Source: Bacteroidota bacterium (lineage in GTDB: Bacteria; Bacteroidota; Bacteroidia; AKYH767-A; 2013-40CM-41-45). Taken from it: a stretch of DNA of 64,000 bases. A model generated the notes under the pieces. The model ran no database searches, was not told the origin of the DNA, and saw nothing but the letters and a program-made list of their open reading frames with translations. Position 1 is the stretch's first letter. Every line of letters starts with the position of its first letter. The translations under genes and the position numbers were made by a program. Positions 22,602 through 64,000 of this stretch are shown one piece after another. The stretch covers positions 1-64,000 of the forward strand of contig SHNE01000025.1 of assembly GCA_004295015.1 (NCBI GenBank), read 5' to 3'.

Positions 22602-23867
22602 TCATTGAAGCAAGACCCTTTTTACTGTTGAACCCAAGGAAGAATAGTATTTCAGAACATATGTTCCTTTAGCCAGGCCGCTTAAATCGACTGATTGAAT
22701 CTCTGAAGTCATCTGACACTTGAAAACAATGTTGCCAATGACATCAAATATTTCTATTGTTCCGCTCAGCACATTTGTTCCCGACTGAACTTTAAATATT
22801 CCATTGGAAGGATTTGGAGATATTAGGACCGGGTTTTCATTGTTCAAACTTTTAATTCCTACGTTACTGCTTTTATAAGTAATTAATTGTCCAGATATTT
22901 TATAATGTGGTTCTGTATGTCCATTGTAATTATAATTGCAGTCTGCACATGTTGAACCGGTAACACATCCCGGATTAGCAGGGCTACAAGCATTCACATA
23001 ATTCTGCAAGCGGTAATCAAGATCAATTGTTTGACCGGGAGATACGACAGAAGTCAGATCAAAATATACAGGTAAGGCATCGGCACCCGGGCACCATCCG
23101 GCGCGGTTGTACTGCCAGGTACCGGATTGAGGAGAGCAAGGATTCGTTGCACAATCTGCTCTCCATAATAAATGTGTGTTGGCAAGAAAGCCATCAATGT
23201 AAAGCGAGTGCGTCTTCTGAGAAAATTCAGCAGCATTATCAGTATTACCTTGTCCATGTCCGGTGTTAACCATTTTAAACTTCACAGCAAGCGCATCCAC
23301 ATCGATAGTCTTTGAAATCACCGGTAATACGGAAGGGTTATTTGCATCACCATAAACAAGATTCTCGGTATACCATAAATTTTCAATCTGAATGTTTTCA
23401 TATACTGGAATACCAAGGGTAAATTCAAAATCGAGTTTTACCAACCATCCGGGATTTGTCCAGGTATCAATGAATGATTTAATGATTACAGTATCCGTCA
23501 ACATCAATCGGTAGTCGCTCACATCAAGTAACCATCCGCAGGCTTTGCCATATGGTGTGATGTAGCGACCAATTTCATACCATTCAGCCTCATGAAAAAC
23601 ACTGACATTGGCAAAGCGATCCCATGGATCACAACCACCGGTCGGGCAACTCAAAGTCACGCGTAATTTTATTTCACTGTACATTGAAATATCTTCAGGG
23701 AAAAAGAAGGTGTCAACAACAGTACGGGTGCCAAGTCCGCTTCCATTTCCCTGATGAACATTATTTAAAGTAGTTATTGTTGTGTCAGCCGGCGCCGCAA
23801 GCGAGACTTTGGAGAATGAAAATAAAATACCGAAACATAAAACCAGAAGGTGTCTTGAACTATTCAT
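22602..23867 (-). CDS. PNGase F-like peptide-N-glycosidase with T9SS tail
   Basis: A secreted protein of 421 residues, likely cleaving N-glycans from glycoproteins at the Asn amide. After a signal peptide (about 1-24), it aligns over its length with Elizabethkingia PNGase F as I recall that sequence: 'GCDPWDRFANVSV' with D83 at the place of catalytic D60, 'WYEIGRYITPYG', 'AAEFSQKTHSLYI' with E214 at the place of E206, and 'RAGWCPGADALP'. The position of E118 is occupied by D134 in 'FIDTWTNPG'. A type A sorting domain (about 350-421, 'LISPNPSNGIF') is added, which classical PNGase F lacks. Activity is inferred; the E-to-D change may alter it. The candidate promoter lies just upstream at 23887-23918. 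Confidence 0.85.
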   Translation of the reverse strand: MNSSRHLLVLCFGILFSFSKVSLAAPADTTITTLNNVHQGNGSGLGTRTVVDTFFFPEDISMYSEIKLRVTLSCPTGGCDPWDRFANVSVFHEAEWYEIGRYITPYGKACGWLLDVSDYRLMLTDTVIIKSFIDTWTNPGWLVKLDFEFTLGIPVYENIQIENLWYTENLVYGDANNPSVLPVISKTIDVDALAVKFKMVNTGHGQGNTDNAAEFSQKTHSLYIDGFLANTHLLWRADCATNPCSPQSGTWQYNRAGWCPGADALPVYFDLTSVVSPGQTIDLDYRLQNYVNACSPANPGCVTGSTCADCNYNYNGHTEPHYKISGQLITYKSSNVGIKSLNNENPVLISPNPSNGIFKVQSGTNVLSGTIEIFDVIGNIVFKCQMTSEIQSVDLSGLAKGTYVLKYYSSLGSTVKRVLLQ

Positions 23868-24368: not shown

Positions 24369-24397
24369 GGGGTTATTAGGCTTTCAGTTGTCTTATA
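24369..24397 (+). promoter_or_regulatory. ECF-type promoter A, upstream of the sigma operon
   Basis: GGGG (24369-24372), 16 bases, then TGTCTTATA (24389-24397), with TTTCA shortly before TGTC. The same layout occurs at 27841 and 28729. The spacing and the GTC core agree with -35/-10 elements of ECF sigma promoters. The ATG is 29 bp beyond the motif. Confidence 0.75.
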
Positions 24398-24425
24398 TAA
24401 TGTAAGGCTGTAACTTGCCCGGCGA

Positions 24426-25007
24426 ATGGCAGAATTGTTTACAGACGAAAGTGCATTATTAACAGCCTTAAAGAACGGAGATCAAGCAGCTCTGGAAACG
24501 CTGTTTCGAACCTATTATGAAGGATTATGCAAGTATGCCCATACTATACTCAATGATATGGATGAGTCGGAAGAGACAGTACAACAACTCTTCATCCAAT
24601 TATGGGAAAAAAGGAGTTCAATGAAAATAAGTAACTCGGCTCAGGCTTATCTGCAAAAAGCTGTCCGAAATTCTTGTCTGAATAAAATTAAACATAAGAA
24701 AGTCAGGAGGCAATATGTTGAAGAAGCCACCGCATTGGCAAATCATAGTGAACCGAGCACTTCAATCTCCTTGCAGAATGAGCTCCGTGATCAAATCAAC
24801 ATAGCAATTGAAAGCCTGCCTGAACAATGCCGAATAATATTCAAACTGAGTCGCTTTGAAGAATTAAAATATTCGGAGATCGCAGAACAAATGGGCCTTT
24901 CTATAAAAACCGTCGAAAATCAAATGGGTAAAGCCCTAAGAATAATGAGAGAAAAACTAAAAGACTATCTGGTCATATTAATAATGCTGACTCCATATTA
25001 CTTCTAG
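24426..25007 (+). CDS. ECF-type RNA polymerase sigma factor
   Basis: A sigma-70 family factor of 193 residues. Region 2 (about 15-65) contains 'FRTYYEGLCKYAHTILND' and 'ETVQQLFIQLWEKR'; region 4 (about 125-180) contains 'LPEQCRIIFKLSRFEELKYS' and the recognition helix 'LSIKTVENQMGKALRIMREK'. The hydrophobic end 'YLVILIMLTPYYF' is common in Bacteroidota FecI-like factors. It is the first gene of an operon with FecR (6 bp gap) and the STN protein, and is preceded by a site that also occurs before the 27900 and 28775 genes, which argues for self-activation and defines its likely targets. Confidence 0.95.
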   Translation: MAELFTDESALLTALKNGDQAALETLFRTYYEGLCKYAHTILNDMDESEETVQQLFIQLWEKRSSMKISNSAQAYLQKAVRNSCLNKIKHKKVRRQYVEEATALANHSEPSTSISLQNELRDQINIAIESLPEQCRIIFKLSRFEELKYSEIAEQMGLSIKTVENQMGKALRIMREKLKDYLVILIMLTPYYF

Positions 25008-25013
25008 ACTATA

Positions 25014-26024
25014 ATGGAAAATCGTTTCGAAAATATAGAAGAAATTATCGCTAAATATTTGGCAGGAGAAGCAAATGCCCACGATAGAGCTATACTGGAA
25101 GAGTGGAAATCTCAGAGCGCATCTAAGCTCCGCGAATTTGAACAGTTTAGCAAACTATTCGAAGAGAGCAGCACATTAAAAAATTCAATTCCTGTTAATA
25201 CTGATAAAGCCTGGAACCGGGTGAAAGAGGCTATATCCCGGGAAAAAAAGTCAACTCTTATATCGATTAAATTTAACCCTTATCAATCTTTCTTCCTGCG
25301 TATTGCCGCATCCTTAATTCTAATTGCCGGTATTGCTTTTACCATCTTTCAACTGACTTCTAATCCGGAAGATATACTGTATTCTGTCTCAACAGACGAT
25401 TCTGTAAAAGTTGAATTAATGCCGGATGGGAGTTCGATTAGTATAAATCGAAATAGCACATTGGTATATTCCATTAATCGTTTTAACAAGGGGAGAGTTG
25501 TGAAATTAAAAGGAGAAGCATTTTTCGATGTAATACACGATGAAACAAGGCCCTTTATTGTAGAGGCTTCCGATTTAAAAATCGAAGACGTTGGAACATC
25601 ATTCAATGTGAAAGCATTTGAAGGGTCGGAAACGGTTCTTGTTTCGGTGCTTACAGGCGAGGTCAAAATCACCAGTATAAACAATCAATCTATCTTTCTT
25701 ATGGCCGGTGAAGAAGCCTCTTATAATGTGCAGTCAAAAGTGATCAGTAAAATGGCCATGATCAGTCCAAATATTTCTTCCTATGCAAACAGGGTATTTG
25801 TTTTTGAAAATACAGAATTAAACATCGTGATGAGTGTTTTGAATGAAGTCTATGACGTTAAACTAGGCTCCGAAAATGACTCTTTATTGAAATGTCGGAT
25901 TACGGTCACTTTTGATAATGAATCGATAGATGAAATCTCTGAAGTACTTGCTGAAACACTGGGACTGAAGATTAAAAAAGAACACAACAAAATTATTCTT
26001 ATTGGAAATGAATGTAAACAGTAG
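25014..26024 (+). CDS. FecR-type anti-sigma factor with DUF4974 domain
   Basis: A membrane regulator of 336 residues that is expected to hold the adjacent sigma factor until a signal arrives from the outer membrane. The cytoplasmic N-terminus ('IEEIIAKYLAGEANAHDRAI', about 8-27) is the sigma-binding part. One membrane helix spans about 93-113. The periplasmic FecR domain (about 125-225) shows 'LMPDGSSISINRNSTLVYS' and 'GEAFFDVIHDETRPFIV'. The C-terminal DUF4974 segment (about 265-332, 'ENTELNIVMSVLNEVY') is an STN-like fold that typically meets the STN domain of the receptor. The STN gene begins before this stop codon (17-bp overlap), so the two are probably translationally coupled. Confidence 0.95.
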   Translation: MENRFENIEEIIAKYLAGEANAHDRAILEEWKSQSASKLREFEQFSKLFEESSTLKNSIPVNTDKAWNRVKEAISREKKSTLISIKFNPYQSFFLRIAASLILIAGIAFTIFQLTSNPEDILYSVSTDDSVKVELMPDGSSISINRNSTLVYSINRFNKGRVVKLKGEAFFDVIHDETRPFIVEASDLKIEDVGTSFNVKAFEGSETVLVSVLTGEVKITSINNQSIFLMAGEEASYNVQSKVISKMAMISPNISSYANRVFVFENTELNIVMSVLNEVYDVKLGSENDSLLKCRITVTFDNESIDEISEVLAETLGLKIKKEHNKIILIGNECKQ

Positions 26025-27828
26025 AATATTTTTCGTTTCATCTATTTTTTTGTTGCTTTCAATATTTAATTCTTCGGCACAAAACAAAACACCCTTGCTC
26101 GAGCGCAAGGTGAGTATTCGTGCTGACAAGGCAGCGGTTGAGGCTATCCTCCAGCAAATCGCAGAAGAAGGTAATTTTACATTTTCGTATGCTCCTCAGG
26201 TACTATCAGGAATGGAAGCTACGTCCATTGTTGCCGGAAACCAATCTGTAAGAGATGTACTTAACAAGCTATTTAATGGAAATATAAATTATAAAGAAAA
26301 AGGGAGTCATATTATTCTTACTAGAAAAGAAATAAAAAAACAAAAGGAGGAAACAGGTTGGTTTGTAATTTCAGGCTATATCAAAGCTGATGACGGTTCA
26401 GAAATTCCGGAAGTAAGCATATTCGATAAGAAGAGCAGGGAGTCAACGATTAGCAATAAATATGGCTTCTTCAATTTGAAAATAGATGGGAAACATAAAA
26501 ATCAGGATCTTATACTTTCTGTCAACAAAGTACAATATAAAGACACGATCGTTTTTGTGAAACAGACCGGAAATTCGATCATCAATATTACCCTCTACCC
26601 GGAAGAAGTTACACCGGCAGCAGTAGACTCCTCAGCCAGACTTGACAGTATTTTAAAGGCAGATCAAATGGCATTCATTAATTTTTTACTGAGTCAGGAA
26701 TCGCAGGTAAATACACGGAATATCAAAGACACTATTTATCAAAAATATCAGGTATCACTGATTCCCTACATCGGAACAAACTTACGGTTAAGCGGAAATA
26801 CCATAAACGATTATTCATTGAATATTCTTGGCGGATACTCAATGGGTACGCGTAAAATTGAACTTGGCGGACTTTTCAATATCAATCGCGATTCAGTAAA
26901 GTATTTACAAATGGCAGGCTTGTTTAATTTCGACGGCGGCCATGTAGAAGGTGTACAATTAGCAGGACTTGCCAATGTAAATTTGAAATCGGTAAATGGT
27001 GCAGAACTTTCAGGCTTATTGAATGTGAATTTGGATTCCTTGCAGGGAGTACAGCTGGCAGGTTTACTTAATGTGAATATTGAACATGTGAATGGAATTC
27101 AGGGAGCGGGTTTATTGAATGCTAATCTCGCTAAAAACTCATCAGCCATTCAGGTGTCAGGACTTCTGAATGTAGCTACCGGAAATCTCTCCGGTTTACA
27201 GGTAGCAAGCCTTATGAATGTAGGAGTTAAAAAAGTAAAAGGGGTTCAAATTAGTAGTTTGCTAAATTATGCACGCAGCATAGAAGGAACGCAAATTGGA
27301 TTCTTAAATATTTCAGACAGCTGTTCAGGTATTCCTTTTGGAATACTAAGTTATGTGCATAGAGGTTATCATCAATTCGAAATTTCTACTGACGAATTCT
27401 ACCCTCTAAATATTTCTCTACGTACCGGAGTTCGGGCCTTGTACAATATCGTATCAGTCGGCATGAAACTGGATTCGCTGGAAGAAATACAATGGTATTT
27501 TGGATACGGGCTTGGTTCAGCAGTAAATCTTGGAAAAAAATGGCAATTGAATGTTGATGTAACAGTGAATCAACCAATACACGGGAATACATTGAATTAT
27601 TTTTCTCCACTGTCAAAACTCAATCTTAGCGTTGAAAAACGATTTTCAAAATATTTTTCAATTGCTGCAGGACCATCATTAAATTATTTTGTGTACAAAT
27701 CCACGGATGATTATCTGCAATCACTTTCGGAAGATGTTCCATCCACCTTCATTTCAAGCACAGAGCGCCCGAACAATTACGCCGAAAAGATCTGGCTTGG
27801 CGGGAAAGTAGCTTTAAGATTTTTTTAA
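26008..27828 (+). CDS. STN-domain protein with LA_2272-like surface repeats
   Basis: A protein of 606 residues from the ATG at 26008, where a signal peptide begins (ends FNSSAQ). Residues about 30-105 form an STN domain ('VSIRADKAAVEAILQQIAEE', 'SVRDVLNKLFNG'), normally found at the N-terminus of FecA/SusC receptors. A carboxypeptidase regulatory-like domain (about 115-195, 'SGYIKADDGSEIPEV') follows. Instead of a TonB plug and barrel it then has about ten 'GxQLAGLLNVNxxxVx' repeats (about 283-446) of the LA_2272 surface-repeat type, then a beta-rich end ('YFGYGLGSAVNLGKKWQLNV'), perhaps a small outer-membrane barrel. It likely contacts FecR through STN. It is third in the sigma operon. The ligand is unknown. 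Confidence 0.85.
   Translation: MNVNSRIFFVSSIFLLLSIFNSSAQNKTPLLERKVSIRADKAAVEAILQQIAEEGNFTFSYAPQVLSGMEATSIVAGNQSVRDVLNKLFNGNINYKEKGSHIILTRKEIKKQKEETGWFVISGYIKADDGSEIPEVSIFDKKSRESTISNKYGFFNLKIDGKHKNQDLILSVNKVQYKDTIVFVKQTGNSIINITLYPEEVTPAAVDSSARLDSILKADQMAFINFLLSQESQVNTRNIKDTIYQKYQVSLIPYIGTNLRLSGNTINDYSLNILGGYSMGTRKIELGGLFNINRDSVKYLQMAGLFNFDGGHVEGVQLAGLANVNLKSVNGAELSGLLNVNLDSLQGVQLAGLLNVNIEHVNGIQGAGLLNANLAKNSSAIQVSGLLNVATGNLSGLQVASLMNVGVKKVKGVQISSLLNYARSIEGTQIGFLNISDSCSGIPFGILSYVHRGYHQFEISTDEFYPLNISLRTGVRALYNIVSVGMKLDSLEEIQWYFGYGLGSAVNLGKKWQLNVDVTVNQPIHGNTLNYFSPLSKLNLSVEKRFSKYFSIAAGPSLNYFVYKSTDDYLQSLSEDVPSTFISSTERPNNYAEKIWLGGKVALRFF
26856..27345 (+). repeat. About ten 'AGLLNVN' repeats of some 20-21 residues
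   Basis: Successive units read LGGLFNIN, MAGLFNFD, LAGLANVN, LSGLLNVN, LAGLLNVN, GAGLLNAN, VSGLLNVA, VASLMNVG, ISSLLNYA and IGFLNIS, each preceded by 'G(V/A/I)Q'. The regular hydrophobic pattern fits stacked strands. The units are coding and clearly diverged in DNA. Confidence 0.85.
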
Positions 27829-27840
27829 CATTTATTGATA

Positions 27841-27869
27841 GGGGTAAATGCTTTTTCAGGTGTCTACTG
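27841..27869 (+). promoter_or_regulatory. ECF-type promoter B, upstream of the DUF2807 lipoprotein
   Basis: GGGG (27841-27844), 16 bases, then TGTC (27861-27864), with TTTCAGG just before TGTC as at site A. The -10 extension (TACTG) matches less well than in A and C. The motif starts 13 bp after the preceding stop and lies 31 bp from the start codon, so the lipoprotein gene has its own promoter. Confidence 0.7.
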
Positions 27870-27899
27870 TATATAAAACAATTAAATATACAGTAAATC

Positions 27900-28619
27900 A
27901 TGAAAAATCAATCTTTAAAAATCTCATTTGCCTTATTCATTTTCATTATTTCATTTACGTCTTGCAGCAAGGACTGGCATGGCGTTGAAGGCCGCGGAGG
28001 CATTCATACTGAATCACGCAATTTCACAGAATTTACCGGAGTAGATTTTCAATTGGCGGGGAGAGTAATTATTGTACCCGATTCACAATATTCTGTGAGA
28101 GTGAGCACCTTTGAAAATTATCAATCTTTGATACACATCGCTGTGCACGGAGGTGTTCTTGTTATCAACTCAACTAAATCCCTGCATGATGACGATATCA
28201 ATATCGAAATCCATCTTCCATACCTTGACTATATCAATCTTGGTGGCTCAGGTTCGATTATAACACAAAACCACTTTAGTTCTACAAACATGAAAGTGAA
28301 AATTACCGGCTCCGGAACCATTGATTACAGCGGTGACGTCACTTCTTTAAATACAAATGTATCAGGCTCAGGGAAAATCACACTACTCGGGACGGCAGAC
28401 AGTTCAACTATGAAAATGAGTGGTTCAGGGAAGGTAAGAGGCTTTGCCATGCGCTGCAAACAAAATAATGTAAGCATAAGCGGCTCGGGAGAGATTGAGA
28501 CGTATGTTAACAATAGTTTAACAGTAAATATATCAGGAAGCGGAAAGGTCTACTACATGGGCAATCCGACTTTGTCACAACACATTTCAGGTTCAGGGAA
28601 AATTATTCATCAGCCCTGA
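27900..28619 (+). CDS. Lipoprotein with DUF2807 / head GIN domain
   Basis: A protein of 239 residues with lipobox 'SFTSCS' (Cys about 22). The rest is a right-handed beta-helix-like DUF2807 domain, recognised by the recurrent 'SGSGxI' turns: 'NLGGSGSIITQNHF', 'KITGSGTIDYSG', 'NVSGSGKITLLG', 'KMSGSGKVRGF', 'SISGSGEIETY', 'NISGSGKVYYMG' and 'HISGSGKIIHQ'. The domain is known as the putative autotransporter adhesin head GIN domain and is common in Bacteroidota envelope proteins, with unknown function. It carries its own copy of the ECF promoter and is closed by a strong terminator, so it is a probable member of the sigma regulon. Confidence 0.9.
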   Translation: MKNQSLKISFALFIFIISFTSCSKDWHGVEGRGGIHTESRNFTEFTGVDFQLAGRVIIVPDSQYSVRVSTFENYQSLIHIAVHGGVLVINSTKSLHDDDINIEIHLPYLDYINLGGSGSIITQNHFSSTNMKVKITGSGTIDYSGDVTSLNTNVSGSGKITLLGTADSSTMKMSGSGKVRGFAMRCKQNNVSISGSGEIETYVNNSLTVNISGSGKVYYMGNPTLSQHISGSGKIIHQP

Positions 28620-28642
28620 TTGCCTGATCTCCACGCGAGAGC

Positions 28643-28675
28643 AAAGGGCAGAGATAACTTCTCTGCCCTTTTATT
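28643..28675 (+). terminator. Intrinsic terminator after the DUF2807 gene
   Basis: AAAGGGCAGAG and CTCTGCCCTTT form a perfect 11-bp stem around ATAACTT, followed by TATTT. Confidence 0.9.
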
Positions 28676-28728
28676 TAATATCATGAAGAGGGAAATGAAA
28701 AAATAATTAAATATTTCAATTAAGCATA

Positions 28729-28757
28729 GGGGTATAATGCACTTCAAGTGTCTTATA
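28729..28757 (+). promoter_or_regulatory. ECF-type promoter C, upstream of the TonB-dependent receptor
   Basis: GGGG (28729-28732), 16 bases, then TGTCTTATA (28749-28757), with CTTCAAG just before TGTC. The TGTCTTATA stretch is identical to that at site A. The ATG is 17 bp beyond the motif. Confidence 0.75.
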
Positions 28758-28774
28758 ATAAACGACAATATTTC

Positions 28775-31141
28775 ATGAAAAATTACAGCTTCGTTCGCAT
28801 TGCATTAATCATTTTAAGTCTACTTTTCAACCAGGCAAAAGCTCAAAATTTTACACAAACTATCCGGGGAACTGTGACAGACATTATCTCTCAATCAGCG
28901 CTACCATTCTCAACAATTGTTTTGTTAAACTCAGAGCCGATAGTTGGAACAGTCGCAGATATCAATGGAGCATTTCAACTAAATGATATACCTGTAGGAA
29001 AACAAAGCCTGAAAATCAGCTGTGTCGGTTATAAAGATCAATTCATTCAAAACATAGTTGTGAGTTCAGGAAAAGAAGTGGTGCTAACTATTTCATTGGA
29101 AGAAAATATAATACAAGGGAAAGAAGTTGTCATAACTGGAAAGGTAGAAAAGAACAAGCCCTTGAATGAATTTACTACGGTCAGCGGACGGACTTTCTCT
29201 GTTGAGGAAACTCAAAAATATGCAGCTGCAGTGAATGATCCCGCTCGTATGTCCACAGCTTTTGCCGGTGTAATTTCTACCGATGACGGAAATAATACCA
29301 TTGCCATTCGAGGAAATTCACCTAATGGTCTATTATGGAGAATGGAAGGCGTGGAGATACCAAACCCAAATCACTTCAGTGGTGTAGCCACATCAGGTGG
29401 AGGGATATCAATTCTAAGTTCACAACTTCTGACTAATTCAGATTTTCTCACAGGAGCATTTGCTGCAGAATACGGAAATGCTCTTAGTGGAGTCTTTGAT
29501 ATGAAACTAAGAAAAGGGAACAACCAAAAAACAGAAAGAACAATTCAATTGGGTGTACTCGGTACTGACGTAGCCATTGAAGGGCCATTTAAAAAAGATT
29601 ATAAGGGATCATACCTATTCAATTACAGGTACTCGACGCTTTCGGTAATTGAAAAACTCGGAGTTAAGCTAGGAGGAGCAACTACGACATTTCAGGATCT
29701 GTCATTTAATGTCTTTCTTCCAACCACAAAATCGGGCAACTTTTCTCTCTTTGGGTTTGGAGGACTGAGTAAACAATACTATGATGCTGAACGAGATTCT
29801 CTGAAGTGGGAGAATAATTATGATCGTTATAACTGGGATTTTAAATCAAACACCGGAGCTGTCGGATTATCACATTTCATTCAATTAAATAAACAAGCAT
29901 ATCTAAAGACCACCCTTTTGGGTTCAGGAACCTGGAAATATTACGAAGAAGAATTAATAGATAATGATTACAAGTCAAAATCTCAAGGTTTCCATAAGGA
30001 TGATCAGAATAAAATAGCTTTGAGCAGCATACTTACCAAAAAGTTCGACGCGCGCAACAGTATCAAGGCAGGAATAATTGCTAATTCACAATTCTACAAT
30101 ATCGAGAAGACTTCAGCAAATGAAGTAACTGATATAATTGAAACAAATGTTCATGAAAATGGCAATGGGTTTACTCTGCAGTCATTCGTTCAATGGAATT
30201 TCAAAGCAACGGAAAAACTGACCTTGAATACAGGATTACATTCATTAGTCTATACCGACAACAACACCTACAGTCTTGAACCACGACTGTCCGTAAAATA
30301 TGATGTAACCAAAACACAATCAGTTAGTCTGGGCTATGGATTGCACCAGCAGACGCAGGCCCTGGGCGTATACAAAGGAAGGCAGCAAAACGGAGATGGC
30401 ACTTACACACAGGCAAATAAAAACCTGGGATTCTCAAAGGCACATCATTTAGTCTTAGGCTATGACCGTTCCATCACAGAATATCTGCGCATAAAACTTG
30501 AAGCTTACTATCAATCATTGTTTGACATACCGGTAAGCAGAGACAGCAGCGAAACATTCAGCATGTTAAATAACGAATCTGGATATTTCACCGACCCACT
30601 TGTTAATGAAGGGAGAGGTAGAAATTACGGGCTTGAACTAACCATTGAACAGTTCCTGCACCATGATTTTTATTTCCTGCTATCATCATCTTTGTATAAC
30701 TCTGAATACAAAGCATCAAATAATTATTGGTATGATACAAGGTTTAATGGAAACTTTGCATTTAGCCTGACAGCCGGGAAAGAATTCAAAACCGGAAAAG
30801 GGTTTGGAAATAGAATCCTTGGGTTTAACATCAAGTCTGTCTATGCAGGAGGATTGCGCAATACCCCAATAGATTATGAAGCATCAGTATTGAAAGGGGA
30901 AACACAGTATATCGAATCACGTCCTTTTGATATTCAGGCTCCGAATTATTTCCGTATTGATACTAAATTCTCTGTAAAAAGAAATCGTCCAAAGAGCACT
31001 ACTACATGGAGTCTTGATTTACAAAATGCAACAAACAGAAAAAATGTTTATGGAGAATACTATGATCCGCTTACAGGAAAAACGAAAACCTCTTATCAGG
31101 CACCTTTAATTCCGGTGCTGAGTTACAGGATTGATTTTTAA
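28775..31141 (+). CDS. TonB-dependent receptor (carboxypeptidase-regulatory-like plug type)
   Basis: An outer-membrane receptor of 788 residues from the ATG at 28775; the frame continues up to 28748 but there it overlaps promoter C. Signal peptide ends NQAKAQ. A carboxypeptidase D regulatory-like domain (about 30-110, 'RGTVTDIISQSALPF', 'DINGAFQLNDIPVG') precedes the plug (about 135-245, 'AIRGNSPNGLLWRMEGVEIP', 'FAAEYGNALSGVFD') and a 22-strand-type barrel, ending 'IPVLSYRIDF' with the usual terminal aromatic. It lacks an N-terminal STN domain, so it may not signal directly. The substrate is unknown; no SusD partner follows. Probably under sigma control through site C. Confidence 0.93.
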   Translation: MKNYSFVRIALIILSLLFNQAKAQNFTQTIRGTVTDIISQSALPFSTIVLLNSEPIVGTVADINGAFQLNDIPVGKQSLKISCVGYKDQFIQNIVVSSGKEVVLTISLEENIIQGKEVVITGKVEKNKPLNEFTTVSGRTFSVEETQKYAAAVNDPARMSTAFAGVISTDDGNNTIAIRGNSPNGLLWRMEGVEIPNPNHFSGVATSGGGISILSSQLLTNSDFLTGAFAAEYGNALSGVFDMKLRKGNNQKTERTIQLGVLGTDVAIEGPFKKDYKGSYLFNYRYSTLSVIEKLGVKLGGATTTFQDLSFNVFLPTTKSGNFSLFGFGGLSKQYYDAERDSLKWENNYDRYNWDFKSNTGAVGLSHFIQLNKQAYLKTTLLGSGTWKYYEEELIDNDYKSKSQGFHKDDQNKIALSSILTKKFDARNSIKAGIIANSQFYNIEKTSANEVTDIIETNVHENGNGFTLQSFVQWNFKATEKLTLNTGLHSLVYTDNNTYSLEPRLSVKYDVTKTQSVSLGYGLHQQTQALGVYKGRQQNGDGTYTQANKNLGFSKAHHLVLGYDRSITEYLRIKLEAYYQSLFDIPVSRDSSETFSMLNNESGYFTDPLVNEGRGRNYGLELTIEQFLHHDFYFLLSSSLYNSEYKASNNYWYDTRFNGNFAFSLTAGKEFKTGKGFGNRILGFNIKSVYAGGLRNTPIDYEASVLKGETQYIESRPFDIQAPNYFRIDTKFSVKRNRPKSTTTWSLDLQNATNRKNVYGEYYDPLTGKTKTSYQAPLIPVLSYRIDF

Positions 31142-31153
31142 AAAATGTCAAAC

Positions 31154-31197
31154 ATTCAACCAAAGTTTGATCGATTCAAATTTTGGTTGAATTTTTT
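31154..31197. terminator. Bidirectional terminator between convergent genes
   Basis: ATTCAACCAAA (31154-31164) and TTTGGTTGAAT (31182-31192) form an 11-bp stem; TTTGA and TCAAA extend it inwards. A T-run follows on the plus strand, and a run of T follows on the minus strand after 'TGTTTGACA'. It ends the receptor transcript and the sugar dehydrogenase transcript. Confidence 0.85.
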
Positions 31198-63338: not shown

Positions 63339-64000
63339 TCAATAATGCACCGTCACCGTACCAATAAAAATATGTTGCTTGCCGAAGACATCTGCCACCC
63401 TCGCTCGCCAGACATAAACATCCTGCTGAACTTTTTCGCCATCGAGAGTGCCATCCCACTGACATGAAGAAGACATTCCTTCATTGCCATAAACATCCCA
63501 TGGAATGTTTGATCCTTCCTGATGACAAGTCCATATTTGCAATCCCCAGCGATCGTAAATCCACATGTCATAAGCCCGGATACCCATTCCTTTTGCATAG
63601 AACAAATCATTCCGGTGATTTCCATTAGGTGTGATGGCATTCGGAGTGAAGAAAGTGAACTCAGGATTAATTTCGACAGGCTTTCGGATTGAATCGACAC
63701 AACCATGTTCCGTCTTCACAACAAGGGATGCGACAAATTGGTAAAAATCATTCGATATCGAAGAAGCATAAGAATACGTTTCAACAGGCCCGCCATTAAA
63801 CGTAGCAGAACCATCACCAAAATTCCAAGTCCACTCAACAACACCGGCGGATGACTGATCCTTGAAGGTAATATTCGGTGAGTTATATCCAATGACCTCA
63901 GAACTCAGTTCAAAATCCGCTTTTGGAAGTGGATATACTTTAATATAATCCTTGAACGACCTGTGCCCTATGCAGCCATAGTCACTCACAACAGTAAGTA
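63339..64000 (-). CDS. C-terminal part of a PKD-containing T9SS type B cargo (truncated by window edge)
   Basis: The frame is open to the right edge of the window, so the gene begins outside it; the GTG at 63989 is an internal codon. The visible 220 residues show the end of an SprB-like unit, a PKD domain ('ADFELSSEVIGYN', 'VVEWTWNFGDGSA') and a gliding-type sorting domain ('FFTPNAITPNGNHRNDLFY', 'YDRWGLQIW', 'CQWDGTLDGEKVQQDVYVW', 'HIFIGTVTVHY'). The position normally read 'NGDGVND' is 'NGNHRND' here. Surface adhesin or gliding-associated function is likely. The stop TAA is at 63339-63341. Confidence 0.9.
   Translation of the reverse strand, partial: LTVVSDYGCIGHRSFKDYIKVYPLPKADFELSSEVIGYNSPNITFKDQSSAGVVEWTWNFGDGSATFNGGPVETYSYASSISNDFYQFVASLVVKTEHGCVDSIRKPVEINPEFTFFTPNAITPNGNHRNDLFYAKGMGIRAYDMWIYDRWGLQIWTCHQEGSNIPWDVYGNEGMSSSCQWDGTLDGEKVQQDVYVWRARVADVFGKQHIFIGTVTVHY

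Follow-up and report, generated by a model that had tools for sequence, protein, structure and literature searches.

The sigma factor, lipoprotein, and receptor genes of a Bacteroidota gene cluster are preceded by one shared promoter motif. The cluster lies in a window of 64,000 nucleotides, the whole stretch of DNA that we analyzed, and the motif, GGGG-N16-TGTC, occurs before a sigma-FecR-STN operon, a DUF2807 lipoprotein gene, and a TonB-dependent receptor gene. These sites are very probably promoters of the ECF sigma factor encoded at 24426-25007, which would use them to transcribe its own operon, the lipoprotein, and the receptor. Sequence comparison shows what the motif is, how conserved and specific it is, which genes make up the set, where the terminators lie, and how the protein domains are arranged. 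The system extends further and is more sharply defined than the first-pass annotation of this DNA had claimed.

All three sites are on the plus strand. Promoter A (24369-24392; 25.4 bits) ends 33 nt before the sigma ATG, promoter B (27841-27864; 26.6 bits) ends 35 nt before the DUF2807 ATG, and promoter C (28729-28752; 34.6 bits) ends 22 nt before the receptor ATG at 28775. A GTG at 28748 would fall within promoter C, and for this reason ATG 28775 is taken as the receptor start. The first-pass annotation had placed GGGG-N16-TGTC sites at 24369, 27841, and 28729 in front of these same transcription units, and both coordinates and placement hold. The TTCA that it noted a few bases 5' of TGTC lies exactly two bases away at all three sites, and sites A and C do share a sequence, TGTCTTATA. 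One detail is corrected: the GGGG of site A belongs to a five-G run, so that the site reads ATGGGGGT rather than ATAGGGGT.

The cluster encodes a sigma and anti-sigma pair together with envelope proteins. The sigma factor (193 aa; 24426-25007, plus strand) scores 168.6 bits against TIGR02985 (Sig70_bacteroi1; curated cut-off 126.4) and is the only protein in its own genome to pass that cut-off. Its gene adjoins that of a FecR-type anti-sigma factor/regulator (336 aa; 25014-26024, plus strand), in which the FecR (56.9 bits) and FecR_C (50.8 bits) domains are both above cut-off. The third gene (26008-27828, plus strand) encodes a 606-aa STN-domain outer-membrane protein. It is followed by the DUF2807 (head GIN/Toastrack) lipoprotein gene (239 aa; 27900-28619, plus strand), whose product has the lipobox FTSC, matches PF10988 at 137 bits (gathering score 24.2), and has solved relatives in 3jx8, 3lyc, and 3pet. 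The TonB-dependent receptor (788 aa; 28775-31141, plus strand) comprises CarboxypepD_reg, plug, and barrel.

Strong intrinsic terminators lie between the DUF2807 and receptor units (28643-28671, plus strand; -20.9 kcal/mol, z -6.1) and 3' of the receptor (31154-31192, plus strand; -20.7 kcal/mol, z -5.5), which fits separate transcription units. No terminator was found between the STN gene and the DUF2807 gene. Thus, promoter B may be an internal promoter, and DUF2807 may also be transcribed by read-through from promoter A. Among the genes tested at the locus, none matches SusD; the receptor is followed by its terminator, not by a SusD gene, and then by a glucose/sorbosone dehydrogenase gene on the opposite strand. 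Directly upstream of the cluster, also on the opposite strand, is a gene for a Peptide-N-glycosidase F-like protein with a type IX secretion tail (22602-23867, minus strand), before which the matrix scan of the window found no promoter motif.

For the STN protein, the prediction is an 8-stranded outer-membrane barrel that carries an STN domain, an NTE domain, and a beta-helix in the periplasm. Its STN domain is above cut-off (35.7 bits), and its CarboxypepD_reg domain is a weak match. The structural model (pLDDT 87) has a signal peptide, STN at residues 34-106, an NTE-like domain at 117-203 matching 9hfj, a beta-helix at about 243-453 formed from LA_2272-like repeats, and an 8-stranded barrel at 453-606 that is like OprF and OmpA and has phenylalanine as its terminal residue. 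The STN fold resembles the signaling domains of PupA and PupB. The whole protein has no Foldseek match at E < 0.001, and the domain assignments therefore rest on per-domain structure comparison. The LA_2272 repeat model NF047436 gives no match for the window protein and is above cut-off in three relatives (L098, L107, and L165).

The receptor has a different architecture. Its plug scores 22.1 bits, just below the cut-off of 23.9, and the plug is matched in all 23 relatives. Its model is a large TonB-receptor barrel with matches to FptA, FpvA, and BtuB (pLDDT 72, with the plug poorly modeled). None of the 23 receptors matches STN, whereas 35 of the 40 separate barrel proteins encoded by the operons do. 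The signaling domain is therefore on a separate protein.

By analogy, the signal is likely to be transduced here by the STN barrel protein. We infer that the motif is recognized by this sigma factor, which FecR would keep inactive, and that sensing falls to the STN protein. FecR probably holds the sigma factor at the inner membrane and has an STN-like C-terminal domain, which is most likely the part that the periplasmic STN domain of the outer-membrane protein touches. If the state of the outer membrane changed, this contact would change with it and release the sigma factor, turning on the regulon with positive feedback. Such positive autoregulation is predicted because the sigma operon carries the target promoter.

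The signal could instead be transduced by the receptor, the STN protein having some other role, such as stabilizing FecR only. In known cell-surface signaling, it is a receptor with STN that contacts the anti-sigma factor (PMC11637429, PMC9249621), and here the receptor is part of the regulon. The distribution of STN between receptors and operon barrel proteins makes this unlikely, as does the constancy of the STN gene, which keeps its place as the third gene behind sigma and FecR; the receptor gene is sometimes apart or outside the fetched stretch. With the STN barrel protein as transducer, a wider reading can be put forward tentatively. It is possible that this is a class-wide Bacteroidota system in which STN has moved off the receptor to a dedicated outer-membrane sensor (an 8-stranded barrel with a periplasmic beta-helix). 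This sensor would report the state of the outer membrane, not receptor import, to FecR and sigma, and the conserved outputs, the DUF2807 lipoprotein and the receptor, would share one promoter.

The promoter motif is conserved before sigma operons across Bacteroidota. Within the same family, two other genera have the identical five genes in identical order, with ATAGGGG-N16-TGTC 5' of sigma and of DUF2807 in both, so that promoter B has an orthologous site in each, and 5' of the receptor in one. Orthologous receptor-upstream sites corresponding to promoter C occur in other genera. Ten genomes of the order have a full-length STN protein, and the motif lies 5' of sigma in the nine other than our own. 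A scan of species-representative genomes with a 10-sequence alignment gave 78 loci in Algoriphagus, Dyadobacter, Emticicia, Chryseolinea, Flammeovirga, Mucilaginibacter, and many uncultured Bacteroidota; a single-sequence scan of contigs gave nothing. The sigma-FecR-STN order is conserved in every locus with a complete stretch. At the level of the class, the STN/repeat protein was detected at E < 1e-40 in 87 of 395 sampled genomes.

GGGG-N16-TGTC is found 5' of sigma in 61 of 77 related operons (shuffles: mean 0.3, maximum 3). Seven further sigma promoters have TTTC instead of TGTC at the -10 position, which brings the count to 68/77. The consensus from sigma promoters is ATAGGGGTAA-N9-TTTSRGTTGTC-N-TA, with ATAGGGGTAA-N9-TTTSRGTTGTC as its conserved core. 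TTCA is not an essential block; relatives have TTCG, TTGA, TTGG, and others there, and TTCA is one form of the looser TTTSRG. At least one promoter site is present in 74/77 loci and in 37/40 sigma clusters (80% identity), and the signal is therefore not that of one overcounted lineage. Three of the 77 loci have no promoter site at all, and in one relative (L037) the receptor lacks a site of its own. Of a further 18 loci from across the class, none of them used in training, 16 have sites at the known gene kinds. A layout of two blocks 16 nt apart, with TGTC at the -10 position, fits what is established for ECF promoters. Conserved -35 and -10 blocks with about this spacing are present before the sigma factor's own operon, and across Bacteroidota the motif keeps both its sequence and its spacing in front of orthologous sigma operons, receptor genes, and DUF2807 genes. 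Phylogenetic footprinting thus supports both the description of the motif as an ECF promoter and the proposal that the sigma factor drives itself, the lipoprotein, and the receptor, with dependence on this sigma factor as the probable basis.

Some lineages depart from this arrangement. In a Cyclobacteriaceae group (L115, L116, L118, L120, L123, L139, and L155), the -10 of the sigma promoter is TTTC while TGTC is retained in the target promoters of the same loci, as though feedback on sigma had weakened compared with expression of the targets. In five distant loci (L256, L257, L263, L264, and L265), the promoter is 5' of fecR and not 5' of sigma; judging from this position, feedback would act on the anti-sigma and STN genes, not on sigma.

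A matrix trained on sigma promoters also finds the target genes. We trained a position matrix on 59 sigma promoters only, with non-sigma sites absent from the training, and applied it to 1.46 Mb of sequence at a threshold of 14 bits. It returned 146 sites; the reversed sequence gave 1, and permuting the matrix columns gave 0.6. Nearly all lie just 5' of genes for sigma, receptor, DUF2807, LA_2272-repeat protein, or a small outer-membrane protein. When 145 sites were placed against genes, all but three were within 130 nt of a start codon. These three, all from Dyadobacter, are oriented divergently from sigma, and gene calling gave no intact DUF2807 reading frame there; in one Dyadobacter locus (L148), DUF2807 remains only as a fragment.

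The Algoriphagus-group loci (L107, L109, L115, L121, and others) have a second LA_2272-repeat protein, without STN, under the same promoter, which also precedes the gene of a small outer-membrane protein (weak PagL/OmpW match). From their upstream sequences, both are candidate further members of the regulon. One locus has near-identical promoter copies at L248:8738 and L248:8867, 129 nt apart, flanking the start of one LA_2272-repeat gene.

The motif is specific to this group of sigma factors. In one Dyadobacter and one Algoriphagus genome, 28 other TIGR02985-like sigmas have nearby scores of at most 10.7 bits, compared with 34 and 39 for the orthologues. A motif general to all Bacteroidota FecI-like sigmas is thus not supported. 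A few of the 28 paralogues have a faintly similar AGGG/GGGGA...TTGTC 30-70 nt upstream. The other ECF genes of our own genome score at most 7.8 bits. That value belongs to an element near the gene of a sigma paralogue (L041, C16:37994), a faintly related AGGATAA-N-TTGTCTTTA, possibly a promoter used by a related group of sigma factors.

The regulon is also small. After sites A to C, the next best score in the window scan with the family-wide matrix is 2.9 bits. Among the 30 closest retrievable near-matches in our own genome, to which the matrix was applied, the best scored 10.8 bits, and these gave no sign of a larger hidden regulon. Within the order, 32 genomes have no such operon, and in them exact TAGGGG-N16-TGTC occurs 25 times (0.8 each; reversed control 86). 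Operon-bearing genomes have about 0.8 per genome away from the cluster, which is background, and extra sites only at the cluster. Thus, the regulon in this order is small and local. A random genome-wide frequency of the motif, which the first-pass annotation had named as grounds for abandoning its proposal, is excluded.

Conservation by itself cannot separate a promoter from an operator, and the motif could be the binding site of a separate activator or repressor with which sigma is merely co-regulated. The extra TTTSRG element 5' of TGTC is not known from other ECF promoters. Several features make a separate factor improbable, however. The motif consists of two blocks at a fixed 16-nt spacing and is neither a palindrome nor a direct repeat. 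With few exceptions, it lies within 130 nt upstream of a start codon and in a single orientation. Furthermore, it travels with sigma and is absent where the operon is absent, and sigma is the only recognized transcription-factor gene among the conserved operon genes.

On its own, GGGG-N16-TGTC is weak evidence, with modest enrichment in the window (4 versus 1.07 expected; 3 of 100 shuffles reach 4). The fourth copy (63524-63547, minus strand) falls within an open reading frame, and the earlier statement that the window has no other intergenic copy is therefore right. The three-block pattern GGGGT-N9-TTCA-N2-TGTC has exactly three matches in the 3.86 Mb genome, all at this cluster, and its reversed-pattern control has none. 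Chance similarity of the three upstream regions, which only the modest enrichment would favor, is refuted by this uniqueness, by conservation in dozens of species including 61/77 sigma promoters, and by the matrix scan (146 versus 1), and its probability is negligible.

DUF2807 genes are recurrent partners of the operon. The first-pass annotation had regarded a DUF2807 lipoprotein beside a receptor as a nonstandard pairing. The pairing recurs and is not a one-off. A DUF2807 gene adjoins the operon in 29 of 80 loci, with its own motif in 19, and several of the remaining ones are just 3' of a motif-driven gene. DUF2807 is also present in 10/18 loci of the further class-wide set, and the distant cases were confirmed by Pfam. 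Its position varies. In four loci, DUF2807 lies 5' of sigma and takes over its promoter, so that sigma has none there; in Dyadobacter and Emticicia, it points away from sigma and has its own site on the other strand.

The system resembles several known ones without matching any. It shares with FecI-FecR-FecA (E. coli; Fox, Pup, and Fpv of Pseudomonas) an ECF sigma adjoining a FecR-type regulator, a periplasmic STN domain, and a TonB-dependent receptor as target. It differs in that a separate protein, predicted to combine an 8-stranded barrel with a beta-helix, carries STN in place of the receptor, in that a DUF2807 lipoprotein is a target, and in that a copy of the target promoter precedes the sigma operon itself; fecIR of E. 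coli is transcribed by sigma-70 (PMC9249621). The ECF/anti-sigma pairs of Bacteroides polysaccharide utilization also combine a FecR-type anti-sigma in Bacteroidota with a nearby TonB-dependent receptor and a CarboxypepD_reg/NTE domain (9hfj is a SusC homologue). Here, however, no SusD partner or glycan enzymes were found as operon members, and sensor and receptor are separate proteins. Prediction of Bacteroidota ECF promoters has been called a challenge that needs start-site data (PMC3878776).

DUF2807-type beta-helix proteins are genetically linked to membrane-stress regulators in other settings. The Toastrack/DUF2807 group has been connected with envelope stress (lia, Psp), with a sigma factor in some neighborhoods (PMC11237479). 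There, it is a sub-membrane domain of a Lia/Psp operon, whereas the DUF2807 protein of this cluster is predicted to be a secreted lipoprotein, and its gene has a FecR-linked ECF promoter. P. gingivalis PGN_1547, also a DUF2807/head GIN protein of Bacteroidota, was reported as an adhesin with its own promoter, and we found no description of a linked sigma regulon in that report (PMC10949514). No known GGGG/TGTC Bacteroidota ECF motif, nor this regulon, was found in the literature searched, which was mostly non-subscription and did not include the ECF reclassification work. The surface-sensing system is real and widely conserved, and it appears to be undescribed. It would be a variant of FecI/FecR cell-surface signaling with STN off the receptor.

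Bacteroidota have many ECF sigma factors whose promoters are largely unknown. For one such group, the present analysis gives a promoter that is conserved in many genera and a small, defined set of targets. Sigma-promoter pairing, autoregulation, and target choice are therefore directly testable. Uncharacterized DUF2807 lipoproteins and LA_2272-repeat proteins gain a shared regulatory context. This also suggests that STN signaling can run from an outer-membrane protein other than a TonB receptor.
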